DNA from: an uncultured Alphaproteobacteria bacterium
GTDB taxonomy: Bacteria > Pseudomonadota > Alphaproteobacteria > HIMB59 > GCA-002718135
Length of the DNA stretch: 43,803 nt
Direction of reading: 5' to 3'
NCBI GenBank assembly: GCA_902518985.1
Contig: CABYIF010000010.1
Coordinates: 1-43,803, forward strand
The notes below the pieces were generated by a model. It was not told the DNA's origin, did no database searches, and worked only from the letters and a program-made list of their open reading frames with translations. The translations under genes and the position numbers were made by a program. Each line of letters begins with the position of its first letter. The first letter of the stretch is position 1. This document shows positions 25,587-43,803 of this stretch, piece after piece.

Positions 25587-26444
25587 ATGATCTTAAGGCA
25601 CTATTTTTTAATATTAATAATTGTTGTTTTGTTTGGCAGTGCTTATCCTCTACAAAAAATTATTTTCAATGAAAATGTTCCCCCTATCCTGATGGGTAGC
25701 TTGAGAATGTTAGTTGTATTTATATGCTTAGTACCATTTTGGAAATTTAAAATACCTAATAAAAAATATTGGTTACCTCTTTTTCTTTTTTCATTGTGTA
25801 TGGGATTTCTCGTTAATTTTTTTATGAATTTATCTTTAAGTGAATCTGCAATTGTATCACCTATAATTATTGGCTCACAATTAGCTATACCATTTGCAAT
25901 TTTGCTTAGTTCATTATTCCTTAAAGAAAAAGTTACATATAAAAAATGGATATTAATATTTATTTCATTTTTTGGCGTTATATTACTTGGATTTGATCCA
26001 TTGATAAGAAATGAGCTATTTGCATTATTTCTGATTAGTTTTATGGCATTTTTTTATGGCTCTGCTCAAGTATTTTCACGTTATCTTAAAGAACTAGAAG
26101 TAACACAGACAAATGCAATAATGGGACTATTTGGATTTATATTTTTAATAATTACTTCATATTTCTTTGAAGGAGATACTATTAATAATATTTCAAATAT
26201 TAGTTTTCAGTCATGGATATTGATATTACATTCTGGAATACTTGTTTCAATAGGTGCTCATATGTCAATGTTTTATCTTTATAGAATTTACCCAGTTAAT
26301 AAGATCTTTCCATTTTACGCACTTTTTCCAGTTGTAGGCATTATCTTAACATTTATGATTTTTTATGAAATCCCAACTTTAATTACAATAACTGGCGGAT
26401 TGATTGTTATAATTGCCACTTATTTAATAAACAAAGAAGATTAA
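25587..26444 (+). CDS. EamA/DMT-family membrane transporter
   Basis: This inner-membrane protein of 285 residues has ten hydrophobic segments and the duplicated EamA layout. Internal features include the repeat-1 motif SLRMLVVFICLVPF and a Lys-rich loop (LKEKVTYKKW) typical of the end of repeat 1. It lies 24 bp after the Pta-type gene on the same strand and may be cotranscribed, so it could move a metabolite of that pathway. The direction and substrate cannot be determined. It overlaps the convergent metalloprotease gene by 4 bp. Confidence 0.82.
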   Translation: MILRHYFLILIIVVLFGSAYPLQKIIFNENVPPILMGSLRMLVVFICLVPFWKFKIPNKKYWLPLFLFSLCMGFLVNFFMNLSLSESAIVSPIIIGSQLAIPFAILLSSLFLKEKVTYKKWILIFISFFGVILLGFDPLIRNELFALFLISFMAFFYGSAQVFSRYLKELEVTQTNAIMGLFGFIFLIITSYFFEGDTINNISNISFQSWILILHSGILVSIGAHMSMFYLYRIYPVNKIFPFYALFPVVGIILTFMIFYEIPTLITITGGLIVIIATYLINKED

Positions 26445-28465: not shown

Positions 28466-29232
28466 TATTTCGCAGTCCAGCCCCCATCAATAACTAATGA
28501 AGAACCAGTCATCATAGAAGAAGCATTTGATGCAAGATAAACTACAGCAGTCGCTATATCACTCTCTGTTGCTACTTTACCTAAAGGTATATTTTGAATT
28601 ACAGATTTTTTAAAATTTTTATCTTTAAAGAATTTTTTTACCATTGGTGTTTCTACAAATGTTGGACATACAGAGTTAACGCGGATGTTATGTTTTGCTA
28701 AATCTACAGCCATACCTTTTGTTAAACCCTCAATACCAAATTTAGTCATATTATAAACACTTCTTAATGGAGCCCCAACCTTACCTAGTTGTGATGAAAT
28801 ATTGATAATTGATCCACCAATTTTCTTTCTATCTTTAGATTTTAACATTATACGAGTTGCAAGTTGAGCAATATCAAACGAAGCTTTGATATTTAAATCA
28901 ACTACCTCACTCATATCTTTTCTATTTATTTTAGTAAAATATTCTGGTCTGTTAGTACCTGCATTATTGACTAAGATATCTAATTTAGAAATTTTAGAAA
29001 ATATTTTTTTTATATCTATTAAGTTTGTGACATCACAAACATAATAAGTACATTTCTTTTTTAATTTTTTAATTTCTTTTTGAACCTGTATTAGATCTTT
29101 CTCTGTTCGACTTATTATTATTAGGTTTGCTCCAGCCTCAGCCAATGCTATAGCGCATGCTTTGCCAATACCTTTGCCTGAACCAGTGACAAGAGCTGTT
29201 TTATTTTTAACACTTAAATTTTTTAGAAACAT
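28465..29232 (-). CDS. short-chain dehydrogenase/reductase
   Basis: This classical SDR of 255 residues has the NAD(P) loop VTGSGKGIGKA near the N-terminus, NNAG, catalytic Ser in INISSQLG, YxxxK as YNMTKFG, and the C-terminal SLVIDGGWTAK. It resembles the FabG-like or gluconate-5-dehydrogenase-like group that oxidises sugars, polyols and hydroxy acids. In this operon (sugar ABC importer, HAD-like protein, SnoaL protein) it most likely oxidises or reduces the imported compound. It is 12 bp downstream of the HAD-like gene and overlaps the SnoaL gene by one base. Confidence 0.9.
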   Translation of the reverse strand: MFLKNLSVKNKTALVTGSGKGIGKACAIALAEAGANLIIISRTEKDLIQVQKEIKKLKKKCTYYVCDVTNLIDIKKIFSKISKLDILVNNAGTNRPEYFTKINRKDMSEVVDLNIKASFDIAQLATRIMLKSKDRKKIGGSIINISSQLGKVGAPLRSVYNMTKFGIEGLTKGMAVDLAKHNIRVNSVCPTFVETPMVKKFFKDKNFKKSVIQNIPLGKVATESDIATAVVYLASNASSMMTGSSLVIDGGWTAK

Positions 29233-29244: not shown

Positions 29245-29904
29245 TTACAATGAAAAGATGGATTGATCTAATAAATTTATTTTTTTGATACACATCTTAA
29301 ATTGATCATCTACATGAAATTCACCAGGAAAAGCTATACATTTAATGCCTGCTCTAACTGCAGAGTTACTACTTTCCTCGGTATCTTCAATGGCTAAGCA
29401 TTCCTCTTTTTGTAAATTTAGTTTTTCAAGAATTACATTATATATTTCAGGATGAGGTTTCTCATTTTTAACAAAAGATTTATTTCCAATAAAATCAAAA
29501 TCTTCTTTTGATATTTGTCCAGAAAGACTTTGAAATACCGCGTTTACATTATTAATTGTTGTAGATGTTGCAAATCCCAACCTAATATTATTTTTTTTTG
29601 TATATTGTATTATTTCATGAACACTAGTTCTTAATTTTTGTTTATTTTGAATTATAAAAGAACTAAAAATTTCAGTTTTCCTGTTTCTAATTTTTGCAGC
29701 ATTGACATTAACATTATTTTTTTCAGCAAAATCTTCGACCCTTTTTGTACCCCCTGATTTTTTTAATAAAATCTTGTAATCTTGTTCATCCCAATACCAC
29801 TCTAAACCTGCTTCTTTAAAAGCTTCGTTAAAAGAATTTCGTTGAATATTTGAAGACTCTATAAGTGTGCCTATTGAACCTAACAGTAATGCCTTATATT
29901 TCAT
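29245..29904 (-). CDS. HAD-superfamily protein lacking the catalytic Asp motif
   Basis: This protein of about 219 residues has the beta-phosphoglucomutase/CbbY-like HAD fold. The first motif, normally DxDGT, reads GSIGT: Gly9 replaces the nucleophile Asp and Ile11 the general-acid Asp. The other motifs remain: FATSTT (motif II), KPHPEIY with the motif III Lys just before (KNEKPHP), and AIEDTEES (motif IV). The loss is therefore selective, not general decay. I recall a group of alphaproteobacterial proteins beginning LLFGSIG-, so it may be a conserved non-hydrolytic subfamily, perhaps a binding or regulatory protein. The ATG at 29904 was chosen over a TTG at 29910. It lies between the permease and SDR genes of the operon. 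Confidence 0.85.
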   Translation of the reverse strand: MKYKALLLGSIGTLIESSNIQRNSFNEAFKEAGLEWYWDEQDYKILLKKSGGTKRVEDFAEKNNVNVNAAKIRNRKTEIFSSFIIQNKQKLRTSVHEIIQYTKKNNIRLGFATSTTINNVNAVFQSLSGQISKEDFDFIGNKSFVKNEKPHPEIYNVILEKLNLQKEECLAIEDTEESSNSAVRAGIKCIAFPGEFHVDDQFKMCIKKINLLDQSIFSL

Positions 29905-29931
29905 ATACAACCTTTTTTAATAAATATTGAA

Positions 29932-30813
29932 TTAACCTTTTACTGCACCAGCGGTTAAGCCACTTATTAATTGTCGTTGAAAAAACATTATTATCATAAA
30001 TAATGGTGCAGTTGCCGATACAACACTAGAAACAGCCCACATATAATTTCCACTATGTTCGATAGTGCCAAGATATGCATTTATTTTTGGAACCATTGTA
30101 TAATTTTGCTGATTAAGAAGAAGTGATGTGACTGTAAAGTCATTATAAGCTAACATCATACTAAATAATCCTGCCGTTACAACTCCAGGCCACATAACTG
30201 GCATAATAACATAACGAAATGCTTGGAAATAACTGCAACCATCAATCAACGCACTTTCATCAAGTTCTTTAGGTACAGTTTTAAAAAACGAATAAAGTAG
30301 CCATAATGTAAAAGGTTGATTTATTGCAACTAACACTATTATTGTAGTTGGAAGTATTCCCCACACATTCAGTTGAAAGAAAGGAAATAAATAACCAGAC
30401 ACTAAAGTTATATGAGGCATCGCTCTAAATATTAGAGCGGCTATCAAAATCCAAAAGGTATATTTATATGTTGATCTAGACAATGCATAAGCACCTAAAG
30501 TTCCGAGAAATAAAGAGATGGTTACAACAGATACAGTTATTATAATTGTATTCATTGTAGCTTTCCAAAACTCACCTTCAGTCCAAGACTCTACATATGC
30601 TTTTACAGTTGAAGTATCTCCTGTTTCAATTAAGGTGTTAACCCCTGTTACAGCAAACATCCAATCAGCTCTTGAAAAAAAGTCTGCTTTTACCTTAAAA
30701 GATCCCCAGAAGGTCCATATAAAAGGAAAAACAGAAACTACTAACCAAAGTATTATAAATAAACTATTTATTAAAATTAGTTGTTTTGAGTATCTGTTAA
30801 TTTTTGATTCCAT
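29932..30813 (-). CDS. CUT1 sugar ABC importer, permease 2 (MalG-like)
   Basis: This inner-membrane permease of 293 residues has six helices and the coupling loop DESALIDGCSYFQAFRYVIMP, the EAA motif of binding-protein-dependent importers. A periplasmic stretch of about 50 residues between helices 1 and 2 is longer than in MalG. It pairs with the permease at 30815 (1-bp gap) and the binding protein at 31910. No ATP-binding subunit is encoded in the operon, so it must borrow one (an MsmX/UgpC-like ATPase elsewhere). Confidence 0.9.
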   Translation of the reverse strand: MESKINRYSKQLILINSLFIILWLVVSVFPFIWTFWGSFKVKADFFSRADWMFAVTGVNTLIETGDTSTVKAYVESWTEGEFWKATMNTIIITVSVVTISLFLGTLGAYALSRSTYKYTFWILIAALIFRAMPHITLVSGYLFPFFQLNVWGILPTTIIVLVAINQPFTLWLLYSFFKTVPKELDESALIDGCSYFQAFRYVIMPVMWPGVVTAGLFSMMLAYNDFTVTSLLLNQQNYTMVPKINAYLGTIEHSGNYMWAVSSVVSATAPLFMIIMFFQRQLISGLTAGAVKG

Positions 30814-30814: not shown

Positions 30815-31843
30815 TTATCTCTCTGTTCTAAATTCTTTCCAAGTTCTAATTAGAACTGGTGTTAATAAAAAGGCTACACCAATAATAGTTAACATAGATG
30901 TTGCACCAGCTGACCCAAATAACATTTTGTTTTCACTTCTCAAGTCATTGTAAATCATCCACGAAAGTGATTGAGCAACTCCTTCAGCAGCAAAACCTAT
31001 TATAGGTTCAAGAACTCTAAAATTATCCATCAGACAAATAAGTATTATGAATGTTGCAACTGGATAAAGATGTGGAATAACTATATGTCTTACCCTATCA
31101 TATCTTGAGGCTCCATCTATGATTGCTGCTTCAATTGGATCTTGTGGCACAGTTTGTAATGCTGCATAAAATACAACGAAAGCAAAAGGTGTATTATGCC
31201 AAATCCCGTAAATAATTAATGTAATCCATGTTAGTTGACTTGATGATTTTAATGATAAATTGGGATCATCAAATAAATATTGAATTGTTGCTCCTAATAT
31301 TCCTTTTGCATCAATCATCCAAAATAAAACGAGTGATCCAATTAATGGTGTGACAATCATTGGTAGAATAACTCCAAAAATAGTCGGGCCCTTTAAACTT
31401 TTTGTAAGAGTATTAATACTCAAGGCGACTATAAAACCTAAAATTACAACTGGAGGTGTCACGGCAAAACAAAATGTGAGAGTAAATAAAAGTGCTTTAT
31501 AAAATGGTAAATTAAGTAAGATATCTATAAAATTAGACATTGAGGAAGAATTATTCCAAGCTTCTTTAATTTGATCAAAGGCTAAATGATTTCTATCTCC
31601 GTAGGTTCCTAAACCATTAAATCTTCCAAGAGGTTGTTCTTCTTGTAATTTTGTAGTGGCTTCAATATCTACTTTGGTTTCAGTTTTACATCCAAATGGA
31701 TCACATTTTTCTACTTCCATCAAAATTTGCTCGGGTTCAATATGGAGAGATTGAAAAAAACTTGAGATTATCGGGAGGCCTATAAACAATACCATGGCCA
31801 GACCACTTGGAAAAAAGAACCAGAAAAATGTTTTGTGAGGCAT
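30815..31843 (-). CDS. CUT1 sugar ABC importer, permease 1 (MalF-like)
   Basis: This 342-residue permease starts with a helix at about 6-28. A periplasmic insertion of about 75 residues follows and includes two Cys close together (KCDPFGCKTE), able to form a disulfide. Five further helices follow, with the EAA loop IEAAIIDGASRYDRVRHIVIPHL recognisable by its AAIIDGAS core. Such an insertion may help dock the binding protein. It is separated from the binding-protein gene by 66 bp containing a 12-bp hairpin, and from the second permease by one base. Substrates of this family are mono- or oligosaccharides, polyols or glycerol phosphates. Confidence 0.9.
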   Translation of the reverse strand: MPHKTFFWFFFPSGLAMVLFIGLPIISSFFQSLHIEPEQILMEVEKCDPFGCKTETKVDIEATTKLQEEQPLGRFNGLGTYGDRNHLAFDQIKEAWNNSSSMSNFIDILLNLPFYKALLFTLTFCFAVTPPVVILGFIVALSINTLTKSLKGPTIFGVILPMIVTPLIGSLVLFWMIDAKGILGATIQYLFDDPNLSLKSSSQLTWITLIIYGIWHNTPFAFVVFYAALQTVPQDPIEAAIIDGASRYDRVRHIVIPHLYPVATFIILICLMDNFRVLEPIIGFAAEGVAQSLSWMIYNDLRSENKMLFGSAGATSMLTIIGVAFLLTPVLIRTWKEFRTER

Positions 31844-31909: not shown

Positions 31910-33145
31910 TTATAGAAAACCTTGCTCAGTAGCTTTTGCTACATAAGCAGCTTCTACATCAGCCAATGCTTTTTCAGCAGATTCATTACCTTGAAGAAAT
32001 TCAACAATTTCTGTACTTAAAGCACCATGCAATAGAGACATGTATGGTAAGCTTGGATAAGGTGCTGCACCTCTGTTAGCTGCATCAACAACTGGACCAG
32101 CAGTATCACCAGGAGAGTAACCATCAATTAACCAAATTGTTGCATTAGGGTTAGCGTTTGCCATCTCTGTTGAAGTTGCTGCACCAAGAAGAGCTCTAAA
32201 TGATGCTTCTGCGTTCTCATCAGAAGTATTTGTTGCAATTCCAAATCCATCCCACCAAAGAGTTGTTGCAGGTACACTTCCTCCACCAACTGATGGTGAA
32301 TTTGCAAGTCTTGTGTCTGCTTTAATCATTTGATCGCCTTCATCATCTAATAATGATGCTGCGCCAGAGTTCCACACATGCATTAATGCAACATTGCCTG
32401 ACTCCCATTCCTCTTTAACTGCATTTGTATCTTGAGTTAAGAAATCTGGATTACTAACTTCTGTTAATCTTTTCATCATATTAAGAGCAGCTACACCTTT
32501 ATCATTATTGATGCTTACTTCTGCTGTTCCAGCTTTGAAGAATTCACCACCATGACCAAGGTACATATTTACGAACTCTTGAGCGACATTCCATCCTGAT
32601 TTGAATGCTCCAGCATATGGATTAGCCATTTTTCCAGAAGCCTTAATTTTTTCAGCAGCTGCGATTACTTCTTCATATGTTGAAGGAACAGCTATACCTA
32701 AATCATTAAGAATACTTTCTCTGTACCAAAGATGCTGCGCGTTAGCCATGAAAGCTATTGCATATATCTTTCCATCAATCACAATCTTTTGATTATCTTG
32801 TAATGCACTTCCGTATTTTGCAACTAAATCATCAAGTGGACGAATTAAATTATCATTCATTAATGTTGTAATTGAACCGTTAGTTACAAGTTTTGCAGAA
32901 AACTCTGCTGGGTTAGCTGATAAAGCTGCAACTTGTAGTTTATTATGATCAACGGAGTGTGTTACAGAAAAATCTGCTCCATCTCCTGCACAACTTTTTA
33001 CCTCATCCATGAAAATTCTGTATGTTGTAAATTCGTTTGCTAGAATCTTTATTGATCCATCTGTTACTCCACAAGGTGAATGCCCATCAGCAAACGCGCT
33101 TGTGCTAACAAAAGAGAATAATAAAGCTATTAATAGTTTTTTCAT
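31910..33145 (-). CDS. periplasmic sugar-binding protein of CUT1 importer
   Basis: This family 1 extracellular solute-binding protein has 411 residues and a signal peptide (KKLLIALLFSFVSTSAFA, cleaved before DGHSPCG). Mature features include the aromatic-containing segment AQHLWYRESILNDLGI, which matches the sugar-binding hinge region of MalE-like proteins, and GGSVPATTLWWDGFGIATNTS. A strong SD (GGGGA) precedes the ATG. It is the first gene of the operon 33145-27392 and is divergent from the LacI regulator. The intergenic region holds a four-half-site operator array. The ligand is unknown; the operon partners suggest a sugar or polyol derivative. Confidence 0.93.
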   Translation of the reverse strand: MKKLLIALLFSFVSTSAFADGHSPCGVTDGSIKILANEFTTYRIFMDEVKSCAGDGADFSVTHSVDHNKLQVAALSANPAEFSAKLVTNGSITTLMNDNLIRPLDDLVAKYGSALQDNQKIVIDGKIYAIAFMANAQHLWYRESILNDLGIAVPSTYEEVIAAAEKIKASGKMANPYAGAFKSGWNVAQEFVNMYLGHGGEFFKAGTAEVSINNDKGVAALNMMKRLTEVSNPDFLTQDTNAVKEEWESGNVALMHVWNSGAASLLDDEGDQMIKADTRLANSPSVGGGSVPATTLWWDGFGIATNTSDENAEASFRALLGAATSTEMANANPNATIWLIDGYSPGDTAGPVVDAANRGAAPYPSLPYMSLLHGALSTEIVEFLQGNESAEKALADVEAAYVAKATEQGFL

Positions 33146-33220: not shown

Positions 33221-33254
33221 TGCAATAATATGAATTAATATTCAATGAATTGCA
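33221..33254. promoter_or_regulatory. phased operator array A (LacI / binding-protein divergent promoter)
   Basis: Four half-sites begin exactly every 10 bp: TGCA at 33221, TGAA at 33231, TTCA at 33241 and TGCA at 33251. The 34-bp unit is a dyad as a whole (TGCA/TGCA outside, TGAAT/ATTCA inside). The same 34-bp layout recurs at 35891 and 40095. It ends 23 bp before the regulator's ATG and lies 76 bp from the binding-protein start. Confidence 0.6.
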
Positions 33255-33277
33255 TAATTTAAATGGGGGATAAAACA

Positions 33278-34282
33278 ATGAATTTTACTAAGACTGCGAC
33301 ATCACAAGACGTAGCAAAACTGGCTGGAGTGTCCCAATCTGCTGTTTCACGATGTTTTACTAAAGGAGCAAGTATTTCAAGTAGAACAAAATTAAGAGTA
33401 TTAGAAGCTGCAAAAAAATTAAAATACAAAGCTCCTAATATTTCTAATGGTATAGTAACAAATGAAGATAGTGGCTTGGTGGCTGTTATACTTCCATACG
33501 TAACAAGCAGATATTATCCTGAAGTGCTTACTGAGTTACACGAAGCTTTAAGATTAGGAGGTTTTAGAATTCTTTTAATTACAACTGATGACGGAGAAGA
33601 ATTAGATGAAAAGTTAATTCAACCTTATCTAAAAGATAAATTGATTGCGATTGTTTCTGCTACTAAGCCTACTGATAGTTTTGTTGAGAGCTGCAATGAA
33701 AAAAGAATACAGTTTATTGCGTATAATAGATCTTGGAATATACCAATGTTAAGTTCAGTTGCGTGTGATCACAGAAATGGAGGTCAGATGGTGGCTGAAT
33801 ATTTTATAAAAAATAAACATCAAGCCATTGGATTAATTGAAGGTCCTAAGGGATCATTTGTAAGCGATGAAAGATCAAAAGGTTTTAAACAATATTTAAA
33901 GAGTTTAAAAAAAATAAAACTAAACATTGAAAAGGGTTTTTTTACTTATGATGGAGGTTATCAAGCTACAGAAAAAATTTTGAAAAACAAAAACGTTACA
34001 GCTATTTTTTGTGCTGATGATACAATGGCCTTTGGAAGTATGGATTATATTAGGCAAAATACAAATTTAAAAATACCAAAAGAAATTGAGTTAATAGGCT
34101 ATGACGATATTTCTATGTCAAATTGGAAATCTTACGATCTTACAACTGTTAGACAGCCAATTAGACAAATGTCCAAATTGGTAACTCAGTTAATTGATGA
34201 ATACTTAAGAGACCCTGATTACGAGGCCATTAACCATATTGTTCAAGGAAGATTAATAAAAAGAAAAACAACAAATAATTAA
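33278..34282 (+). CDS. LacI-family transcriptional regulator
   Basis: This 334-residue repressor-type protein has an N-terminal helix-turn-helix (about 9-28, SQDVAKLAGVSQSAVSRCF) and a periplasmic-binding-like effector domain from about residue 55. The domain shows the family blocks VACDHRNGGQMVAEYF, AIFCADDTMAFG and IGYDDI. The start is the ATG at 33278, seven bases after a clear GGGGGA SD; an ATG at 33263 lies on top of that SD. The hinge segment (APNISNGIVTN) lacks the usual N-x-x-A-x-x-L pattern whose Leu inserts at a central CpG, which suits operators without CpG. It is divergent from the sugar importer and is probably the regulator of the island, responding to the imported compound (inference). 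Confidence 0.9.
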   Translation: MNFTKTATSQDVAKLAGVSQSAVSRCFTKGASISSRTKLRVLEAAKKLKYKAPNISNGIVTNEDSGLVAVILPYVTSRYYPEVLTELHEALRLGGFRILLITTDDGEELDEKLIQPYLKDKLIAIVSATKPTDSFVESCNEKRIQFIAYNRSWNIPMLSSVACDHRNGGQMVAEYFIKNKHQAIGLIEGPKGSFVSDERSKGFKQYLKSLKKIKLNIEKGFFTYDGGYQATEKILKNKNVTAIFCADDTMAFGSMDYIRQNTNLKIPKEIELIGYDDISMSNWKSYDLTTVRQPIRQMSKLVTQLIDEYLRDPDYEAINHIVQGRLIKRKTTNN

Positions 34283-34299
34283 TTTAATTAAGATCAATT

Positions 34300-34719
34300 T
34301 TATTTAAATTTTAAACCCATTTGTTCAAACACACCGTGGTTATCAACCATGACGTAATTATCTAAAAACTTTCCTTCTTTAATTGTCCAAAAATCTGAAA
34401 ATTGCATTTTAATTGCTTTGCCAGTAGGTTCCACTCCTAAGTATGTTCCGCTATGTGTCCCTGTTAGAAAACCTGTTGCACTTATCCACTCACCTTCAGC
34501 AACCACAATATCATTTTTAACATGATAATCTGGAAATGCATCATAGAAAGGTTTTAGAACTTTATATTTAAAATTTTCTATACCATGGATATCACCAAAA
34601 CCCGGAGGACCATGCCAAATCATATTATCATGCCAATATTTATGTTGAGCTTCTAGATCTTGCGCGTTAAGTGCATCATACATATCAGCTAATAATTTTT
34701 TACTTTCATCTAAAGTCAT
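34300..34719 (-). CDS. single-domain SnoaL-like protein
   Basis: This 139-residue NTF2-fold protein of the SnoaL/ester cyclase type contains MIWHGPPGFGDIHG, FPDYHVKNDIVV, THSGTYLGVEPTGKAI and MVDNHGVFEQMG, the usual order of SnoaL motifs. Single-domain members form dimers and include cyclases and isomerases; the reaction here is unknown. It follows the two-domain protein at 34716 with an ATGA overlap and a strong AGGAG SD inside that gene, so the two are made together, possibly as partners. The WHGPPG motif aligns with the second domain of the larger SnoaL proteins in the island. Confidence 0.87.
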   Translation of the reverse strand: MTLDESKKLLADMYDALNAQDLEAQHKYWHDNMIWHGPPGFGDIHGIENFKYKVLKPFYDAFPDYHVKNDIVVAEGEWISATGFLTGTHSGTYLGVEPTGKAIKMQFSDFWTIKEGKFLDNYVMVDNHGVFEQMGLKFK

Positions 34720-35855
34720 TTTTTATCTCCTAATATTTGCATCAAAATTGCTAGCTCATTAAAACCAGTCCATTCTTTGACAATTTTATTATTTTTAATT
34801 TGCCATTGAGTAATTCCCCACAAATACACTTCTCTATTAGTTGGCTGGCCATATGAGCCATTTCCTTTATGCGTTCCTACTGCGCCCCAACGCACCGATA
34901 CTAAGAAACCATCTTTTGTATTTCCCATCCAGTATAAATCTTCGATACTTAATGCAAGATCAGGAAATGAAGCTAACATTGATATTATAAATTTTCTTAA
35001 TTGCAAAGTTCCTTTAAATTTACGACCAGTTGAGCCTTCAAATTCTACATTACTAGAGTATGCTTTATTTATTGCAGAAAAGTTTCGTCTATTCCAAATT
35101 GTATCATAAACTGCATGAACAAATTCTCTTACATTTGTAATTTTATCCGGAATATCAAAACTAACTGGTTTTAATTTAGTAATATTTCTAGTTGGCTTAG
35201 AGTTTTTAAAATTAGGTGCAAAGGGCCCTGCAACTCCTTCATCAACAAGTTGTTTAGCAACTTGATTTAAATCTAAACCGAGTTGTTTAATTAAGCCTGC
35301 TGTATCATAGACAACGTTTTCGTAGTAAATTTCATTATCTTTTGCTACACAATTTGCAATACAAAATAATCTTACTTTTTTCCCAGTTGGTTTGGAAAAT
35401 TTACTAAATCCAGTGTTGGTTCCAGTAATAATTGTTCTATGCGATGTATGAAAACTTGCATTTTCATCTCCTGCCCAAATAACTTCATCAGCGAATAATC
35501 TAATATCTGGGAACGCATTATTAGTGTGTACAGTATCAGCAACTATTTTTTCAGATCCAGATTGCAAACCAAATTCATCCCAAACTCTACAATCTTTACT
35601 GTAGGTATCATAAATGTATCCAATATTTTTTTCTTCCCATATTTGGTAAGTAATCCTCACTATGTAATCGATTATATTTTTATATTGATCCTCAAACCCC
35701 TTCATTGATTGATGTTTAAGTTTTTTTGGTTTTGAATTTAGGGATTTTGCTGATCCTCCACCTCCATATGCTTTTAATGAAATATCATAACTCTTTGGCA
35801 TATGATGGTCTTCAAGAGGTTGTGGTCTTTTATCAATAATTTTTTTAAATTTCAT
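34716..35855 (-). CDS. two-domain SnoaL-like protein, subtype a
   Basis: This 379-residue protein has a 50-residue N-terminal extension, then two SnoaL/NTF2-like domains. Domain 1 starts MKGFEDQYKN (residue 51) and contains ITYQIWEE and SKPTGKKVRLF. Domain 2 (about 240-379) contains FPDLALSIED and THKGNGSYGQPTN. From MKGF on it matches the protein at 38105 (MKGFDNQFKN, GQPSN), defining subtype a. The extension is Lys/Gly-rich with a GGGG run and has no parallel in that paralog; the true start might be Met51 (base 35705). The upstream operator array at 35891 supports a transcript beginning close to 35855. It is divergent from a subtype b protein at 35963 and coupled to the gene at 34300. Confidence 0.82.
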   Translation of the reverse strand: MKFKKIIDKRPQPLEDHHMPKSYDISLKAYGGGGSAKSLNSKPKKLKHQSMKGFEDQYKNIIDYIVRITYQIWEEKNIGYIYDTYSKDCRVWDEFGLQSGSEKIVADTVHTNNAFPDIRLFADEVIWAGDENASFHTSHRTIITGTNTGFSKFSKPTGKKVRLFCIANCVAKDNEIYYENVVYDTAGLIKQLGLDLNQVAKQLVDEGVAGPFAPNFKNSKPTRNITKLKPVSFDIPDKITNVREFVHAVYDTIWNRRNFSAINKAYSSNVEFEGSTGRKFKGTLQLRKFIISMLASFPDLALSIEDLYWMGNTKDGFLVSVRWGAVGTHKGNGSYGQPTNREVYLWGITQWQIKNNKIVKEWTGFNELAILMQILGDKK

Positions 35856-35888
35856 AATTTGTATTTATTATGAAATACATTTAAAAAT

Positions 35889-35926
35889 ATTTCAAAGCAA
35901 TGAAATTCTATTCAAAAAATTGAATA
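35889..35926. promoter_or_regulatory. phased operator array B (divergent SnoaL promoter)
   Basis: Two perfect palindromes lie in tandem: ATTTCA-N6-TGAAAT (35889-35906) and TATTCA-N6-TGAATA (35909-35926). Their centres are exactly 20 bp apart. The cores TTCA/TGAA start at 35891, 35901, 35911 and 35921. The array is midway between the divergent genes at 35855 and 35963, about 35 bp from each start. Confidence 0.65.
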
Positions 35927-35962
35927 TTGTTTTTTTTTGTTTATTGATATAATCAAAATGAA

Positions 35963-36967
35963 ATGACTGATCTACAAGTAGAAAAAAAGTTGGTATTAAA
36001 TTATTTCAATGAAATAGACAGTTGTAACATTGAATCTTTATCAGAAGTCATATCCAAATATACATCAGAAGATTTTAGTATGAAGTGCACTCATCCTTTC
36101 AACGAACTAGATAGCACAGATCTTGTAGCAAAAAATCTTTGGAAACCAATCAAAGATTCATTTTCACCTATACAACGTCGATTAGATATATTTTATGCTG
36201 GGATAAATGCACTTGATAAAAATAAAGGGAAGTGGGTCTCAAGTATGGGTCATTTTATGGGTGTTTTCCATAAACCGTTTGTAGGCCTTAAACCAAATTA
36301 TAAATCTATTTTATTAAGATTTGCAGAATTTTATAAAGTGGAAAATAATAAAATTACTGAAGGAGCTATTTTTTTAGATGTAATGAATTTAATGCAGCAA
36401 CTAGGTCTTTCTATAATTCCTGAGTCTACAGGTCTCGTTTGTGTAACGCCAGGACCAATGAATCACAAAGGGTTGAAATTTGATGTTTCTAATCAAACTG
36501 AAAGTCAAAAAACATTAGATTTAATTCACAGAATGCGCGATCGACTTGTTAAAGGATCCAAAATGCAATCTTATAAAGAAGAGTTAGAATTAGATTGGCA
36601 TAATGATATGATTTGGTGGGGACCAGGAGGTATTGGTGCTTCATACACTATTGATGGTTATCAAAAAGGTCACACAAAACCATTTCAAGATGGCTTAGAG
36701 TTTGTACGTTTCAATGGACATATACTTAGCAGTTCTGAAGATGATCTAGGTGGTTGGTTTGGTTGGCCAAATTTAATTATGAAACCTAAAGGAGATTATT
36801 TGGGTTTAACAAATGCCAGTGATATTGAATCAGAAATGAGAGTTGTAGATTTATATCGAAGAGACGGAAATAAATTAGCTGAAAATTGGATCTTTATCGA
36901 TCATTTACATTTTTTAAAAAAACTAGGAGTGGATCTTTTAGAAAGAGCAAAATTTTTAAATCAGTAA
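35963..36967 (+). CDS. two-domain SnoaL-like protein, subtype b
   Basis: This 334-residue protein with two NTF2-fold domains resembles those at 27392 and 40171. Domain 1 has THPFNELDS, a short SPIQRRLDIF segment and a KPNYKSILLRFAEFY strand where others carry PTGK. Domain 2 has IWWGPGGIGASY and the closing block EMRVVDLYRRDG...ENWIFIDHL. The reaction is unknown. It forms a divergent pair with the subtype a protein at 34716 under operator array B. The same a/b pairing recurs at 38105 and 40171, which suggests that the a and b proteins act in one pathway or complex. The end abuts the convergent core-MetE gene with no gap. Confidence 0.85.
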   Translation: MTDLQVEKKLVLNYFNEIDSCNIESLSEVISKYTSEDFSMKCTHPFNELDSTDLVAKNLWKPIKDSFSPIQRRLDIFYAGINALDKNKGKWVSSMGHFMGVFHKPFVGLKPNYKSILLRFAEFYKVENNKITEGAIFLDVMNLMQQLGLSIIPESTGLVCVTPGPMNHKGLKFDVSNQTESQKTLDLIHRMRDRLVKGSKMQSYKEELELDWHNDMIWWGPGGIGASYTIDGYQKGHTKPFQDGLEFVRFNGHILSSSEDDLGGWFGWPNLIMKPKGDYLGLTNASDIESEMRVVDLYRRDGNKLAENWIFIDHLHFLKKLGVDLLERAKFLNQ

Positions 36968-38095
36968 CTAAATAACTTTTGAGGCAAGTTTAGTTCCTGT
37001 AACTAAAGCATGAAGTTTTTCATAACATATATTTTCATCGATCTTACCGAAGCCAGCAAAAGTGCTAAAACCACAATCAGTTCCAGCCATTAATTGATCT
37101 TTTGGGATAACAGTTGAAAATTGGATTAACCTATCAGCAACAACTTCAGGGTGTTCAACAAAGTTTGATGTTGAATCGATTACACCAGGTACTAAAACTT
37201 TATCTTTGGGTAATTTTATTTCTTCAAAAACTTTCCACTCATGTGCGTGACGAGGATTTGATGACTCAATAAGAAAATATTTAATTTTTGATTTCAAAAT
37301 TATTGGTAGAATTTTCTCAAGGGCAATATCATGTGTGTGAGGACCTTCATAATTACCCCAGCAAATATGCATTCTTGTCTTTTCACTATCAACATTTTCT
37401 AAAGCGGTATTTAAACATTCAATTTGAATTTCTGCTCTTTTTAAAAACTCGTCTTCTGTAAGATTTTTAAAATTCATATGTCTAGCTAGTGCCAAATCTG
37501 GACAATCTAATTGTACTTGAATATTAGCCGCAGTAATCTTTTCATATTCAAGAGCCATTATACTTGATAGCTTATTTAAATAATCATCATCACTATTATA
37601 ATATTTATTTGGCATAAAAACGTTTATCACCCCTGGTGATGCTGCATTCATAAATGCTTTTGTATGATTAAATTTTTTCAATGAAGTATTAAAATTATTA
37701 ATGTCATTTAGTAGAGATATTTCATCTTTAATTTTTAGCTCATGTGTACAGCAAGGTCTTGAATACGTTGGGGTCCCACCACTTTTAGCTATTTTTTCTT
37801 TATACTCCGGAAAATCATCTAGATCAGCTGGTGCTCTTCTTTCACTTTCACCTGAAAAACCGTCAATCCTATCTTTGATATAAGTTGCATAACTTATTTT
37901 ACTCATCTCTCCATCGCTAATAAAATCAATCCCTACTTCGAGTTGCCTTTTTACAATTTGATCAACATTTAAAGATAAAACTTCATCAAATTTTTCTTTA
38001 CTATACTCTTCACCTTTATCTTTAGCAAAAAGCAATTCTGATAATTCTTTTGATCGAGGGAGACTTCCTACATGGGTTGTTAAGATAGATGTCAT
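36968..38095 (-). CDS. core-MetE family zinc transferase, paralog 2
   Basis: This 375-residue UROD/MetE-like barrel has zinc-ligand motifs MHICWGNYEGPHTHD (His, Cys) and TDCGFSTFAG (Cys), the N-terminal TTHVGSLPRS and a VQLDCPDLALARH segment. It lacks the folate-binding N-terminal half of MetE. Length and motifs fit the broad group that includes short methionine synthase-like enzymes and epoxyalkane:coenzyme M transferases. A zinc-activated thiol should therefore attack a methyl or alkyl donor. It is well diverged from the copy at 21042. It is the last gene of the minus-strand unit cupin-SnoaL-MetE (gaps of 8 and 9 bp), so its job is probably catabolic, not methionine synthesis (inference). 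Confidence 0.82.
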   Translation of the reverse strand: MTSILTTHVGSLPRSKELSELLFAKDKGEEYSKEKFDEVLSLNVDQIVKRQLEVGIDFISDGEMSKISYATYIKDRIDGFSGESERRAPADLDDFPEYKEKIAKSGGTPTYSRPCCTHELKIKDEISLLNDINNFNTSLKKFNHTKAFMNAASPGVINVFMPNKYYNSDDDYLNKLSSIMALEYEKITAANIQVQLDCPDLALARHMNFKNLTEDEFLKRAEIQIECLNTALENVDSEKTRMHICWGNYEGPHTHDIALEKILPIILKSKIKYFLIESSNPRHAHEWKVFEEIKLPKDKVLVPGVIDSTSNFVEHPEVVADRLIQFSTVIPKDQLMAGTDCGFSTFAGFGKIDENICYEKLHALVTGTKLASKVI

Positions 38096-38104
38096 TTTTT
38101 AATA

Positions 38105-39097
38105 TTATCCAGTCTTTAATAAAATTTGTTTCCAAATCATAGTTTCATCATAAAGAACCCATTCATTCTTAATCCCCATAGATCCAAATTCAACATGATT
38201 AATTCCCATAACATAAATTTTTGCGTTAGATGGCTGTCCAAAAATTCCATTTCCTTCATGTTTCCCATTCAGCGACCATCTAATGGCTGCTTTTTTAGCT
38301 TGAGATTCCTCCTCAATAAAAGCAACATGTTCTATTGTAAATAATGCATCGGGAAAAGATGACCGAAGTTGTTTCCAAAATTTAATACATTCATCTCGTC
38401 CATAGTGAAGTTGACCGCCAGGTTGAAATTGTTGAATTGACCTATCATAATTATCATTAATTGTCTTTTCAGCAGTTACATTCATTATTGAAGTTAAAAT
38501 ATTTGCATATTTGTCTCCAATATTTCCTGATGGAAGAATTGGCGATGTATAAATTGATTTAACTGGGGTATTTTCATCAAATGGTTTTGAGGATTTCTCT
38601 GGCCCACCTTCTTGTGAAATTAAATTATTAGCAAATACTTTTGGATCGATACCAATTTGCCTCACTATTGCTCCCTGATCTCTAACGAGCCATTCATCGT
38701 ACACTTGGTTATTCATACAAGCACAATCTGCTATTGTTCTATAATATAACTTTTTACCAGTAGGTTCTCCGTATAAGCCATCATTATTGTGAGTAGAGGT
38801 TGATAATATCCGATGTGAAGAAAAGTATCCCTCTTTATCATTGCCAGTCCATATTACATCTTCCCCAAGTAGGGTACGATCTGGAAAAAGTTTCTTACTT
38901 TCTTTTGTACTTTTTATTACCGGATCTGCACCGTAAATTACTCCCCCAGGTGATCTTGTTGGAGTTGGTAAACTTACCTGAGGTGTATCAGCATAATATT
39001 TCTTTATTGATTCAACATCATTATTTTCCCAAATCTGATAGGTTATTTTTAAAATATAATCGGGTAAGTTTTTGAATTGATTATCAAAACCTTTCAT
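38105..39097 (-). CDS. two-domain SnoaL-like protein, subtype a
   Basis: This 330-residue protein begins directly at MKGFDNQFKN, the point where the paralog at 34716 starts after its extension. Domain 1 contains ITYQIWEN, LFPDRTLLGEDVIW and GEPTGKKLYYRTIADC. Domain 2 contains FPDALFTIEHVAF, KHEGNGIFGQPSN and NEWVLYDETMIWKQIL. Both domains are SnoaL/NTF2-like and the catalysed reaction is unknown. It sits in the unit cupin (8 bp upstream), SnoaL-a, core-MetE (9 bp downstream), read from operator array C. It is opposite the subtype b protein and HpsN-like dehydrogenase on the other side of that array. Confidence 0.85.
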   Translation of the reverse strand: MKGFDNQFKNLPDYILKITYQIWENNDVESIKKYYADTPQVSLPTPTRSPGGVIYGADPVIKSTKESKKLFPDRTLLGEDVIWTGNDKEGYFSSHRILSTSTHNNDGLYGEPTGKKLYYRTIADCACMNNQVYDEWLVRDQGAIVRQIGIDPKVFANNLISQEGGPEKSSKPFDENTPVKSIYTSPILPSGNIGDKYANILTSIMNVTAEKTINDNYDRSIQQFQPGGQLHYGRDECIKFWKQLRSSFPDALFTIEHVAFIEEESQAKKAAIRWSLNGKHEGNGIFGQPSNAKIYVMGINHVEFGSMGIKNEWVLYDETMIWKQILLKTG

Positions 39098-39105
39098 GAA
39101 GTTTT

Positions 39106-40077
39106 TTAATTTGTCTGTCTAATGATAAATAATTTACCAGAGGTATCGCTTATCTGCTTGATTGAGCGCACAGAATTTTTTGGCACTGAAAAAGTATCTC
39201 TTTCGCCAATTATTACTTTTTCTCCATCACATTGAATTTCCCATTCACCATCTAAACAATTAAACACTTCAGATTTTTCTAGTGCATATTCATGAATATG
39301 AGCATTTTTCCCTTGCAAAAGAGATAAATTGAAACCAGTTTTATGGGGAATATAAGGTTCAAATGTTTTGTTGTGAATATTAAGATGATCTATGTAATTA
39401 ATAATTTTATTAGAATTATAATGCTCGTCATCAACAAAATATTTTTCAGAATCATTTAATCTTATCACATATTTTTCAATTTCAGATGAATTGTAATGAT
39501 CAAATGTTTCAAGCTCTTGTTCTTTTAAGGGTTGAATTATTTTGTCTTCATCAGGAATTTGTTGCTTTGCAGTATCAATTAGAGAATTATCATTCATTAA
39601 TACCATACCTGAGTCTTTAGCATCTTTTAACAATTTGGGTGTCCACGTAATAACACCAGGATCATTTTCACCAAGTACTACAAACATTAATGCTTCATCC
39701 TTGCCTACATTTTGGAAACCTCTAAACATATTAGTGGGAAAAGAAGCTACATCACCACGATTAAGAATTACTTCACCTTCAGTTCCATCTACTCCCCAGT
39801 AAAATCTCCATGATCCAGCATGAATAACAAAAACTTCTGCTGTTGTATGACTGTGTAATCCTGAACCATTCATTGGTGCAGCACTAACAGCCCCAATATT
39901 AAATCCATGTTCTTCTGCAATTTTCACATTTTGCTTTGCATCTTCACTTACTCCTGGTCCAATAACTGAATAGTTTTTTCTATCTTGATGGCCTTTTAGT
40001 TTACCCTCAACGAAAGGTATATTACTTGGAACAAGTTCATCAAATTTAGCTAATCTTGAATTAATATTAGTTGACAT
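39106..40077 (-). CDS. double-cupin domain protein
   Basis: This 323-residue protein has two cupin barrels. The first (about 65-150) shows GLHSHTTAEVFVI, matching the HxHx4E metal motif, followed by GDVASFPTNMFRGFQNVG. The second (about 240-320) shows AHIHEYALEKSEVF and GERDTFSVPKNSVRSI. Bicupins include quercetin/gentisate dioxygenases, oxalate decarboxylases and sugar isomerases, so the exact reaction is open. The first domain appears metal-competent; the second retains two His and a Glu at looser spacing. It is the first gene of the minus-strand unit downstream of operator array C, 18 bp from the last half-site, so binding there would probably block its promoter. Confidence 0.85.
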   Translation of the reverse strand: MSTNINSRLAKFDELVPSNIPFVEGKLKGHQDRKNYSVIGPGVSEDAKQNVKIAEEHGFNIGAVSAAPMNGSGLHSHTTAEVFVIHAGSWRFYWGVDGTEGEVILNRGDVASFPTNMFRGFQNVGKDEALMFVVLGENDPGVITWTPKLLKDAKDSGMVLMNDNSLIDTAKQQIPDEDKIIQPLKEQELETFDHYNSSEIEKYVIRLNDSEKYFVDDEHYNSNKIINYIDHLNIHNKTFEPYIPHKTGFNLSLLQGKNAHIHEYALEKSEVFNCLDGEWEIQCDGEKVIIGERDTFSVPKNSVRSIKQISDTSGKLFIIRQTN

Positions 40078-40092
40078 ATTGCAGTGATATTT

Positions 40093-40130
40093 TATTCATT
40101 TTTTTTGAATAATATTCATATTATTGAATA
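40093..40130. promoter_or_regulatory. phased operator array C (cupin / SnoaL-HpsN divergent promoter)
   Basis: TATTCA-N7-TGAATA (40093-40111) and TATTCA-N6-TGAATA (40113-40130) are tandem palindromes. TTCA/TGAA cores begin at 40095, 40106, 40115 and 40125, giving the same 34-bp core span as arrays A and B. The second palindrome shares both 6-bp arms with the one at 35909. The array lies between divergent genes at 40077 and 40171. Confidence 0.65.
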
Positions 40131-40170
40131 AATCAAATACTATTTAATATATTGATGTGTGTATATTTAG

Positions 40171-41268
40171 ATGACAGATATAAATAATGATTTTAAAACA
40201 ATGCAAAAAAATAATACTAACTTTATTCATATAGACTTAGATCCGAAACAAAATATTAAGAATAAGAAATATTTTAAGAATCTTTTAAATAAAATTGCTG
40301 AAACATCCTTAGAAAATTTAGATGAACTGTTAGCTAATTTTTACCATAATGAAGCTGAGCTTAATGCTTTTTATCCCATAAATGAAATAAAGGGAATTGA
40401 TGAAATTAAAAATAAATTATGGGTACCTTTAAAGAAATCTTTTCCTGATTTAGAAAGAAGAAATAATTTAGTCATTGGAGGTTCGTTTCAGGATAAAGTG
40501 TTTGTTTCTTTTATTAGTCATTTAACTGGTACATTTGTGAATCAATGGCTTGGAGTACCTCCAACACACAAAACAATTTATTTAAGAACCTGTGAAGCTC
40601 ATCAAATAACTAATAATAAAATTATAAAATCATATATTTTAATTGATACTATTGATTTTATTCGTCAAGCTGGTCATTGGCCTATAAATAAATCTATAGG
40701 AGCAGAAGGAATGTGGCCAAGTCCAATTACTGGAGATGGTGAAAATAATGAAAACCTAGATAAAGATTTATCATTAAAATCACTCCATTTAGATTTAACA
40801 ATGCAAAAAAGTCTTGATATCAAACCTGAAAAAGAACCGGGTCTTAACAAAGATCAAATAAGAGAAAAACTCATGAACCATCCTCAAAAAAAATATTGGC
40901 ATCCAAAAATGATGTGGTACGGACCGTCAGGTATTGGAACTGCAAGAGGATTATCTGGTTTTGTTGATCATCATCAACTTCCGTTTAGACTAACTTTTAA
41001 AGAAAGAGATTATAATACTATCGGACACTATATCAGAATTGGGGATGGTAAATTTTCAATGACTGGGGGCTGGCATAGTATCAAAAGCAAATATGAGACT
41101 AATGATTGGTTAGGCTTTGAAGCAAAAGATAAAATGGTTGAAATGAGAGTTATGGATTTTTATTTAAATCATGAGGGTTTAATTAGGGAAAATTGGGTAC
41201 CTATTGATATTGCTCATATTTTACACCAATTAGGTATTGATATATTTAAATTAATTCATAAAAAATAA
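40171..41268 (+). CDS. two-domain SnoaL-like protein, subtype b
   Basis: This 365-residue protein has a hydrophilic N-terminal extension of about 50 residues before domain 1. Domain 1 contains NAFYPINEIKG, SFPDLERRNN and GVPPTHKTIYLR. Domain 2 contains KMMWYGPSGIGTARGLSG and the subtype b end block EMRVMDFYLN...ENWVPIDIAHILHQLGIDIF. It is closest in motifs to the protein at 27392 (WYGPxGIGTxRG). The reaction is unknown. It is 2 bp upstream of the HpsN/HisD-like dehydrogenase and surely cotranscribed, so it likely acts on the same substrate series. It is divergent from cupin-SnoaL-a-MetE across operator array C. Confidence 0.85.
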   Translation: MTDINNDFKTMQKNNTNFIHIDLDPKQNIKNKKYFKNLLNKIAETSLENLDELLANFYHNEAELNAFYPINEIKGIDEIKNKLWVPLKKSFPDLERRNNLVIGGSFQDKVFVSFISHLTGTFVNQWLGVPPTHKTIYLRTCEAHQITNNKIIKSYILIDTIDFIRQAGHWPINKSIGAEGMWPSPITGDGENNENLDKDLSLKSLHLDLTMQKSLDIKPEKEPGLNKDQIREKLMNHPQKKYWHPKMMWYGPSGIGTARGLSGFVDHHQLPFRLTFKERDYNTIGHYIRIGDGKFSMTGGWHSIKSKYETNDWLGFEAKDKMVEMRVMDFYLNHEGLIRENWVPIDIAHILHQLGIDIFKLIHKK

Positions 41269-41270: not shown

Positions 41271-42593
41271 ATGGCTATAGAATATTTAAAAAAAGGAATT
41301 GATGAACAGCAAAGATCTGAGGATAACGAGAAAGTAAAAAAAATTGTTGAAGATACTTTGTATAGAATTGAAACAGAGGGAGATAAATACATAAGAGAAT
41401 TATCTAATAAATTTGATAATTATTCACCACCAAGTTTTAAATTGTCTGAAAATGAAATCACGCAACTGATGAGTGAAGTTAAAGATGAAGATATAGAAGA
41501 TATTAAATTTGCTCAAAAACAAGTTAGATCGTTTGCTGAGGCACAGCTAAAAACATTAAAAGAACTCGAAGTAGAAACACATCCTGGTGTGATCCTAGGT
41601 CATAAAAATATTCCTGTTCAAGCAGTAGGTTGTTATGTTCCAGCTGGAAAATTTCCTATGGTAGCATCTGCACATATGTCTGTTGTTACTGCATCAGTTG
41701 CTGGGGTACCTAGAATAGTTGCAACAACACCTCCATTTCAAGGAAAACCAAATCCAGCTGTTGTCACAGCAATGAAACTAGGTGGAGCTCATGAGATATA
41801 CGTATTAGGAGGTATGCAAGGTGTTGGTGCAATGGCAATAGGAACTGAAACTATAAAACCTGTTGATATGTTAGTTGGTCCAGGTAATGCATTTGTAGCT
41901 GAAGCTAAAAGACAATTATATGGAAAAGTAGGCATTGATCTTTTTGCTGGACCTACTGAAACCATGGTAATTGCAGATGAAACTGTGGATGGTGAAATTT
42001 GTGCGACAGACTTATTAGGTCAAGCAGAACATGGATATAACTCACCTGCGGTAATGATTACAAATTCAAGAAAACTTGCTGATGAAACAATTAATGAAAT
42101 TAAAAGAATATTAGAAATTTTACCAACAAAAGATACTGCGAGTATTAGTTGGAAAGATTATGGTGAAATAATCTTATGTGATACTTATGAAGAAATCTTG
42201 GATAAAGCTAATGAAATTGCCTCCGAGCATGTCCAAGTGATGACAGATAGAGATGATTGGTTTTTGAATAATATGACTGCCTATGGCGCTCTCTTTTTAG
42301 GGGCTCGAACAAATGTAGCTAATGGTGATAAAGTAATTGGAACTAATCACACGTTACCAACAAAAAAGGCTGGGCGATATACCGGAGGTCTCTGGGTAGG
42401 TAAATTTATTAAAACACATACTTACCAAAAAATAACTACTGACGAAGCGGCAACAAAAATTGGAGAGTATGGATCAAGACTTTCATACCTTGAGGGATTT
42501 ATTGGTCATGCTGAACAATGTAATGTTCGAGTTAGAAGATTTGGTGGTGTTAATGTTGAGTATGGCAAACCTGCTGCTAAATTGAAGAATTAG
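41271..42593 (+). CDS. histidinol dehydrogenase-family, sulfopropanediol dehydrogenase (HpsN)-like
   Basis: This zinc- and NAD-dependent four-electron alcohol-to-acid dehydrogenase has 440 residues. HisD-type residues are all present: Gln251 and His254 (GQAEHG), Glu319-His320 (ASEH), Asp353 and His360 (GDKVIGTNH), and His413. From memory, the N-terminus (MAIEYLKK) and the blocks [11 protein letters not shown] and [19 protein letters not shown] resemble HpsN, which oxidises 2,3-dihydroxypropane-1-sulfonate to sulfolactate, more than biosynthetic HisD. There are no his genes nearby, and it is coupled to a SnoaL gene in a catabolic island. The substrate could be a sulfonated or plain polyol; the exact one is unproven. 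It overlaps the convergent cysNC gene by 4 bp. Confidence 0.85.
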
Positions 42594-43803
42594 ATTTTAT
42601 TATTACTTTTTAAATACTGTAAAACTTGCTCAGCTAAATCTTCTGCATTGTTATTTTCTGTTTTTAAAATAATTTCTGGAGATACAGGTTTTTCATAATT
42701 TGAATCAATACCAGTAAAATTTTTTAATTGTCCAGCTCTTGCCTTTTTATATAATCCTTTTGGGTCTCTTTTTTCACATTCATCAATTGGTGTATCGACA
42801 AAAATTTCAATAAACTCATTTTCTTCTACTAATTCGCGTGCCATTTTTCTTTCAGATTTAAATGGTGATATAAAAGAAACAATTGTAATTAATCCAGCAT
42901 CAACCATTAATTTAGATACCTCTGAAATACGTCGAATATTTTCAACACGATCTGTATCAGTAAAACCAAGATCTTTATTTAATCCATGTCTTACATTATC
43001 ACCATCTAACAAATAAGTGTGTTTACCTGACTGATGCAATTTTTGCTCAATAATATTTGCTATGGTTGATTTTCCTGATCCTGAAAGTCCTGTAAACCAT
43101 AATATACAGGGTTGTTGACCGTTTATAGAAGATCTTAAATTTTTGTTTACAGACATATCTTGCCATAAAATATTTGAGGCTCTTCTAAGTTCGTGATCTA
43201 TAACACCTGCTCCTAAAGTCAAATTATTGAATTGATCAATTATAACAAAACTGCCCAATCTTTTATTATTTTTATAGGAATTAAAAATTGTATTTTTATT
43301 TAATGCAACTTTACAGTAACCAATTTCATTTAAACTTAATGATTTGGAGGCAATTTTATCAAATGTATTAATGTTTACTTTATGAACAAGATCTGTAATT
43401 TTTCCATTTGTTTGTGAATTTATAAATCTAAAAATATAATTTCTTTCAGGAAGCATTTTTTCTTTATTCATCCAAATAATGTGGCATGCAAATTGATCTG
43501 AAGAAAAATAATTATTTTTTTCATTTGAACATATCAAATCTCCTCTAGAAATATCTACTTCTTTATTAAATGTTAAAGTTACTGCCTGACCTTTGACCGC
43601 AAAGTCTTGATCTCCTCTTGGTGTTATTATTTTTTTTATTATATTCTTTTGTTTACTAGGCAATATTTGAACTTCATCATCAATTTTAATTTTTCCTGAA
43701 GAAATCGTACCGCTATATCCTCTAAAATTTGAACTCAATCTATTTACCCATTGAACAGGCATAGAAAAAATATTTTCTTCTACATCAACTAAACTTATCT
43801 GTT
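42590..43803 (-). CDS. cysNC: bifunctional CysN/CysC, 3' part (5' end outside window)
   Basis: This is the C-terminal part of a fused sulfate adenylyltransferase large subunit (CysN) and APS kinase (CysC). The frame stays open to the window edge; Met at 43762 is internal, in the conserved SMPVQWVNR segment. The CysN part shows elongation-factor-like domains 2 and 3 ([18 protein letters not shown]). The CysC part starts near residue 215 counted from that Met, with Walker [10 protein letters not shown] at 225-233, [19 protein letters not shown] and the APS kinase end KPVSPEIIL. It makes APS and then PAPS for sulfate assimilation or sulfation. CysD should lie just upstream, outside the window. 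Confidence 0.93.

Follow-up and report, generated by a model that had tools for sequence, protein, structure and literature searches.

A predicted LacI-controlled catabolic gene cluster with tandem SnoaL proteins and an importer-linked optional cassette in an uncultured alphaproteobacterium

The window analyzed here is a stretch of 43,803 nucleotides of contig CABYIF010000010.1 (assembly GCA_902518985.1) from an uncultured alphaproteobacterium; coordinates refer to its forward strand. It carries a cluster in which genes for SnoaL proteins occur together with a LacI-family regulator and a sugar-type ATP-binding cassette (ABC) importer. We denote the tandem SnoaL proteins of subtype a as a1 and a2, those of subtype b as b1, b2, and b3, and the single-domain SnoaL protein as s1. 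"The order" is the taxonomic order of the window organism, and L and G numbers designate the loci and genomes compared. On the reverse strand lie the genes for the solute-binding protein (SBP; 31910 to 33145) and the permeases F (30815 to 31843) and G (29932 to 30813), whose homologues are annotated as sugar/carbohydrate ABC permeases, followed by those for a HAD-like hydrolase (29245 to 29910; PF13419) and a short-chain dehydrogenase/reductase (SDR) (28465 to 29232; PF13561) and by b3 (27392 to 28465), the last gene in the transporter operon. The LacI-family regulator (33263 to 34282; PF00356 and PF13377) is encoded on the forward strand, and a weak, degenerate operator-like palindrome, TGAA-N6-TTCA (33231 to 33244), is found between it and the ABC operon. 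An optional cassette comes next, with s1 (34300 to 34719) and a1 (34716 to 35855) on the reverse strand and b1 (35963 to 36967) on the forward strand; between a1 and b1 lies predicted operator array 1 (35891 to 35924), two TTCA-N6-TGAA palindromes with a spacing of 20 bp. The genes for a MetE-like protein of the cobalamin-independent methionine synthase C-terminal family (36968 to 38095), a2 (38105 to 39097), and a double-cupin protein (39106 to 40077; PF07883 in two stretches), all on the reverse strand, are core genes. Beyond predicted operator array 2, composed of TTCA-N7-TGAA (40095 to 40109) and TTCA-N6-TGAA (40115 to 40128) 20 bp apart, the forward strand carries b2 (40171 to 41268), which is core in the order, and the gene for a HisD-like Zn/NAD dehydrogenase (41271 to 42593). 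All five a and b genes named in an earlier note on this DNA were found in their places. That note had also described an a gene and a b gene transcribed away from each array. This holds for a1 and b1, but the second array adjoins the cupin gene instead of a2, which is the second gene of cupin-a2-metE.

All six proteins (a1, a2, b1, b2, b3, and s1) passed the Pfam gathering cutoff of PF07366, the polyketide cyclase family of SnoaL, AknH, and IdmH. According to a whole-genome scan, all 10 PF07366 matches of this genome fall between 27485 and 41232 of the window contig, and PF13577 had no match in the genome. The identity between a1 and a2 was 30% over 331 amino acids (E 4e-53), and that between the b proteins was 29% (b1/b2), 27% (b1/b3), and 31% (b2/b3), with E values from 3e-43 to 7e-56. 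Smith-Waterman z scores, calculated with 100 shuffles each, were 57 to 75 within a subtype versus 1 to 9 for the six a-b pairs. The a and b profiles aligned N terminus to N terminus and C terminus to C terminus over 274 columns (probability 97.1, E 7e-11). Because this alignment spans both domains in the same order, a and b most likely share a two-domain ancestor, and they appear to be tandem SnoaL subfamilies that separated long ago.

The motifs by which the earlier note had defined the subtypes fared differently. For b, WxGPxGIG and ENW were borne out in 29 aligned sequences: W, G, and G of the first and E and W of the second were invariant, and P, G, and N were at least 90% conserved. For a, the MKGF start was only partly kept among 26 aligned sequences and GQPxN was not conserved, other a proteins having GxPTG, GKASN, and the like at this position. 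The a1 reading frame begins 50 codons upstream of MKGFEDQ; this N-terminal extension is kept in order-level orthologues and is missing from the aligned a2-type sequences. An Asp was aligned near the C-terminal end of the N-domain of a, of both domains of b, and of s1, with Asp or Asn in the C-domain of a. This residue may correspond to D121, the catalytic Asp of SnoaL and AknH.

Structure prediction gave a tandem NTF2 fold for both a2 (mean pLDDT 92.1, pTM 0.90) and b2 (mean pLDDT 89.3, pTM 0.89; residues 1 to 19 low). The best structural matches of single a2 and b2 domains were SnoaL-like proteins, with Z scores of 12.7 to 18.2 among the matches listed, many of the other matches being uncharacterized proteins; this comparison mostly covers one domain per protein and cannot show the tandem arrangement as new. 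In a Foldseek search, the models were at most 21% identical to the matches listed. Lsd19 (3rga and 4rzm), a two-domain NTF2-fold epoxide hydrolase, ranked at the top for both a2 and b2 over most of their length, and MonBI-MonBII, an NTF2-fold epoxide hydrolase, also matched b2. Superposition over whole chains was poor (TM score by query 0.29 to 0.35, root mean square deviation 15 to 18, about 10% identity), so the domains are packed differently in a2 and b2, and the matches that superposed well were single-domain SnoaL-like proteins. Lsd19 and MonBI-MonBII were set aside as functional leads because of this poor superposition. SnoaL, SnoaL2, AknH, IdmH, and AclR are single-domain biosynthetic proteins, whereas a and b of the window are tandem proteins in an import/catabolic locus. 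Two SnoaL proteins are mentioned in one article (PMC12337268).

Searching species genomes with a2-type queries returned at least 593 pattern matches, of which at least 565 were relatives, and 80 loci were kept; none of the 62 pattern matches on viral contigs was a relative. Each of the 80 loci had exactly one a gene, together with two b genes in 50 loci, one in 27, three in 1, and none in 2. Gene content was counted for the 61 loci exceeding 20 kb, each reading frame being assigned to its best-scoring seed (minimum 80 bits). An a2 gene, a b gene nearest to b3 (some just 26 to 32% identical), and the SBP and both permeases were present in 61/61 loci. LacI and hisD were each found in 58, the ATPase and the cupin in 57, and SDR, metE, and s in 56; RraA was found in 53, an alpha/beta hydrolase in 40, and a b1-type gene in 34. 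A frequent gene order was b1, divergent from ABC, s, hisD, b3, SDR, LacI, a2, cupin, metE, hydrolase, and RraA, and in the b tree the window's b3 clustered with a roseobacter b gene sited between hisD and SDR. Since the cupin, MetE-like, and HisD-like genes accompany a lone a gene in most loci elsewhere, they are, judged by gene content, part of the core. The proposal of the earlier note that one copy of a duplicated module had gained them therefore does not stand; it is s1-a1|b1 that is optional. Separately, a hydrolase gene that the window lacks lies between LacI or b1 and metE in L127, L133, L134, L137, and L138, and the two that were run through Pfam (L127 and L138) have an alpha/beta fold.

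We then considered the palindromes. In the whole window, TTCA-N6-TGAA occurred 6 times versus 2.98 expected, and 5 of 100 shuffles reached 6, so there was no clear enrichment. The two a/b intergenic stretches (200 bases together) hold three of the six copies, a number reached by 0/5,000 shuffles, a figure that flatters the motif because it was chosen from the same sequences. Stronger support than the shuffles comes from related loci, in which the motif is conserved and agrees with whether LacI is present. At least one copy was present in the cupin|b2 gap of 17/17 loci with LacI and 0/3 without it, and in the a1|b1 gap of 11/11 loci with LacI and 0/3 without it, the window being included in both counts. 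The three loci without LacI (L125, L132, and L135, 19.5 kb each) represent at most two separate losses, and a more distant LacI is possible for L132 and L135, whose sequences begin within the importer genes or immediately ahead of them. The idea that one operator type is common to both divergent arrangements is thus supported, as a prediction, by a palindrome that is kept in the gaps of relatives and tracks LacI. Of 10 gaps between SBP and LacI, only 2 contained the exact motif, and others showed a degenerate form, which makes importer control less certain.

The block of s1, a1, and b1 is best described as an add-on. In G161, from the same genus, LacI abuts metE and the 2.7-kb block (34283 to 36967 of the window) is absent. 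The two clusters were 91% identical in hisD, 89% in SDR, 85% in metE, 84% in b3, and 83% in HAD and cupin, and 72% in LacI, 71% in b2, and 64% in a2, with merely 40 to 53% in the importer. Among 19 further hand-picked loci, 13 had both a1 and b1 and 6 had neither. We extended the comparison to 100 genomes of the family, of which 72 had an a gene and 40 of these a1. Importer type was scored in the 66 genomes for which both an a gene and a match to the SBP were available. The SBP was of the window type (77 to 100% identity) in 38/38 genomes with a1, and of type A (48 to 49%, 16 genomes) or type B (39 to 41%, 12 genomes) in 28/28 genomes without a1. Cassette presence thus matched importer type in 66/66 genomes, with the a gene and SBP on one contig in 64 of them; four genomes with an SBP and no a gene were left out (G267 and G285, window type; G275, type A; G244, type B). 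When changes were mapped on a five-protein core tree of 21 loci, 3 were counted for the cassette and 4 for the importer type, and independent pairs were concordant in 3/3 cases. Synonymous differences between the window and L122 were 0.39 for s1, 0.31 for a1, 0.27 for b1, and 0.40 to 0.54 for the importer, versus 0.58 to 0.72 for eight other compared genes, a pattern that fits recombination of the cassette and importer blocks. As a separate observation, the b1 of L130 (L130:10918-11934) is 75% identical to that of the window and 14 other compared genes are 93 to 99% identical, which is a single-gene replacement.

These data could also be explained if s1-a1|b1 and the window-type importer came in together as one pathway variant, joined the regulon, and then spread by homologous exchange. 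The sharply defined site between LacI and metE at which the block is either present or absent, the synonymous divergence of both blocks below that of their flanks in some pairs, and the wider kin of a1 in other orders and phyla are consistent with such an arrival. However, a1 and b1 are found in each of the order's two families, so that ancestral presence with repeated loss fits equally well, and three changes on the tree cannot distinguish gain from loss. In addition, the block in the window is directly flanked by LacI and metE with no extra open reading frame of at least 80 amino acids between them, no wider search for mobility genes having been made. We regard a separate gain as rather unlikely.

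The earlier note had seen the two a/b arrangements as copies of one regulated module, one of which gained the cupin, MetE-like, and dehydrogenase genes, and had suggested that a and b are obligate partners. The divergent layout and operators common to both gaps agree with a duplication of this kind, as do the pairing of a1 with b1 and of a2 with b2 in 13 a1-bearing loci and a correlation of 0.83 between a1 and b1 distances over 11 loci, but the correlation between a1 and hisD was equal. Trees were built from 58 a sequences, picked from 136 a-like reading frames plus the two of the window, and from 60 b sequences, picked from 169 plus the three of the window. In the a tree, in which long branches were flagged, a1 and its order-level orthologues grouped with proteins of Deinococcus, Priestia, Sinorhizobium, Roseibium, and Novosphingobium, and a2 grouped with proteins of Roseobacteraceae, Granulosicoccaceae, Oceanospirillaceae, and others. 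The branch between them had a support of 100/98, with other phyla on the a1 side; trees placing the two a proteins far apart are the outcome that the earlier note itself had named as refuting. In the b tree, b1, b2, and b3 each fell with genes from other families; b2 and b3 formed a clade in the best tree with a support of only 57/53 (22 sequences). A clade of the order's own a1 and a2 was rejected by the approximately unbiased (AU) test (p 0.003), and so was one of the order's own b1 and b2 (p 6e-36); because of these rejections, a duplication of a and b within the order is excluded as far as the trees can tell. Pairing of b1 with b2 across all sequences was not rejected (AU p 0.098), which a deeper duplication would allow.

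The partnership between a and b was examined in genome samples. In the class sample (n = 190), a was found in 15 genomes and b in 14, with both in 14, a only in 1, and b only in none. In the phylum sample (n = 299), in which scoring was limited to the top 6 or 7 first-look candidates of each genome, a and b were each found in 15 genomes, with both in 13, a only in 2, and b only in 2 (Fisher p ~6e-19, uncorrected for relatedness). The four genomes of this sample in which one of the two was found alone at E 1e-30 were all rated 100% complete. In the second family of the order, an a gene was present in 31/31 b-positive genomes and in 0/4 added b-negative genomes. Clusters with a and no b in stretches of 25 to 29 kb were found in Sinorhizobium, Priestia, Novosphingobium, Roseibium, and Deinococcus. 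A Deinococcus plasmid (L080:10174-14065) carries three full and one short a1-like gene in a row, with no b in the stretch. The partnership therefore appears strong at the level of the cluster and not obligate, the more so as b1 was exchanged without a1 in L130, a close relative. Given this co-occurrence on one side, and on the other the rejected order-level clades, the genomes with a or b only, the core status of cupin, metE, and hisD, and the clusters elsewhere in which a single a gene sits with b1-type and b3-type genes, we consider it very unlikely that an ancestral a|b pair was duplicated with its operators and encodes an obligate complex.

To approach the substrate, we turned to the HisD-like enzyme and the importer. 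The HisD-like protein scored 396 and 351 bits against dihydroxypropanesulfonate (DHPS) dehydrogenases and 256 bits against the best true HisD. Its closest solved relatives are those of HpsN, the DHPS 3-dehydrogenase (8v35 and 8wwe), and it keeps the catalytic Glu-His and Asp and the Zn ligands (SEH, GDK, GQAEHG, and GHA aligned). It has GKFPM where histidinol dehydrogenases have GSAPL; nevertheless, it lies above the TIGR00069 hisD cutoff. In the DHPS dehydrogenase, the sulfonate is reported to be recognized by His126 within GRY[AS]H (PMC11382572). The window protein has GKFPM in place of this motif, with Met instead of the His, and among 113 HisD-like homologues GKFPM was found in 95 and GRYSH in 1. 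A HisD-like protein of another type (45 to 47% identical, with GRYNN or GRNNY) was seen at the usual place in L124, L125, L137, and L138. The relatives of the SBP in the PDB are mostly sugar binders, with weak similarity (best E 3.5e-11), and one of them is the sulfoquinovosyl-glycerol binder SmoF. A cluster that degrades DHPS or a derivative with an HpsN-type enzyme would agree with these nearest solved relatives and their aligned catalytic residues, with the SDR in PF13561, to which hpsO is assigned in PMC11382572, and with the sulfopyruvate decarboxylase beta and alpha subunit genes elsewhere in the window (10033 to 11098, reverse strand, both above the NCBIfam cutoffs), but we disfavor it as highly improbable because the diagnostic sulfonate-binding His is replaced by Met in this and most homologous enzymes and the importer relatives are mostly sugar binders, SmoF notwithstanding. 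The HisD-like enzyme may instead carry out the four-electron oxidation of an alcohol substrate that is not a sulfonate, and the MetE-like and double-cupin proteins are compatible with demethylation or ring chemistry. LacI, a sugar-type SBP with permeases, and oxidoreductases are shared with the LacI-regulated sugar ABC utilization loci of alphaproteobacteria. In contrast to those loci, no sugar kinase or glycosidase was found among the core genes run through Pfam, and the window encodes six SnoaL proteins, clusters elsewhere typically having a, s, and one or two b genes.

Several further genes lie outside the cluster. A second MetE-like gene (21042 to 22091, forward strand), well outside it, adjoins a sulfatase/phosphodiesterase-like gene (19500 to 21035). 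A 310-amino-acid protein with a HELIH zinc-protease-like motif (26441 to 27373, reverse strand) had no Pfam match at 1e-3. A CysN/CysC-type gene (42590 to 43762, reverse strand) matches only the later part of the model (from position 244 of 632); with a listed start 41 bases short of the window's end, the gene is probably cut there.

Taken together, we favor a single LacI-controlled catabolic regulon with an importer-linked SnoaL cassette over duplication of an a/b module, with a probability of roughly 0.6. In this model, the ABC importer would bring in a carbohydrate-like compound, which the core set (the HisD-like and SDR dehydrogenases, the cupin and MetE-like proteins, a2, b2, and b3) would break down. 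Judging from fold and context, each a or b protein probably carries out its own nonredox step, such as isomerization, dehydration, or ring opening, and these steps probably lie between import and oxidation. The s1-a1|b1 cassette would be under the same predicted operators as the core, and since it was found only with one importer type, we infer that importer and cassette may jointly tailor the pathway to a chemical variant of its substrate.

A number of points weigh against this model. SnoaL-fold proteins can also be noncatalytic binders, and catalysis by a and b is predicted. The a and b genes may have been duplicated jointly at a very early time, given that the deep pairing of b1 with b2 described above was not rejected. 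The linkage between cassette and importer comes down to three independent switches, too few for significance (sign test p 0.25), so chance co-inheritance could account for it, and 6 of the 72 a-bearing genomes had no SBP match and were unscored (G271 and G273 with a1; G198, G208, G248, and G287 without it). The low synonymous divergence of the blocks seen with L122 gave no such contrast with L132 or L133. L123 was close to the window in the importer and not in a1/b1, so the blocks exchange separately within the window-type group, and in L130 b1 alone was foreign (synonymous divergence, pS, of 0.61 versus 0.13 to 0.36 elsewhere). Finally, s, b1, cupin, or metE is missing from some clusters, so that the pathway varies.

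Relatives of a2 occur commonly, and the 80 loci kept mostly represent the same cluster. Many of these loci come from marine genera, among them Ruegeria, Roseibium, Sulfitobacter, and Tateyamaria, and a metabolite that is itself common may thus serve as the substrate. The cluster was described in no title or abstract among those listed in a literature search, subscription papers being mostly outside its reach. It is possible, and we put it forward tentatively, that these loci encode a widespread, undescribed catabolic pathway in which tandem SnoaL enzymes perform the carbon chemistry and a swap of importer and cassette retargets a common core to variants of one abundant algal metabolite. If so, a fold best known from polyketide cyclization would have a degradative role. 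The natural presence or absence of the cassette, with a matching importer, offers a ready comparison for the identity of the substrate, and the same comparison could reveal the role of tandem SnoaL proteins outside antibiotic biosynthesis.

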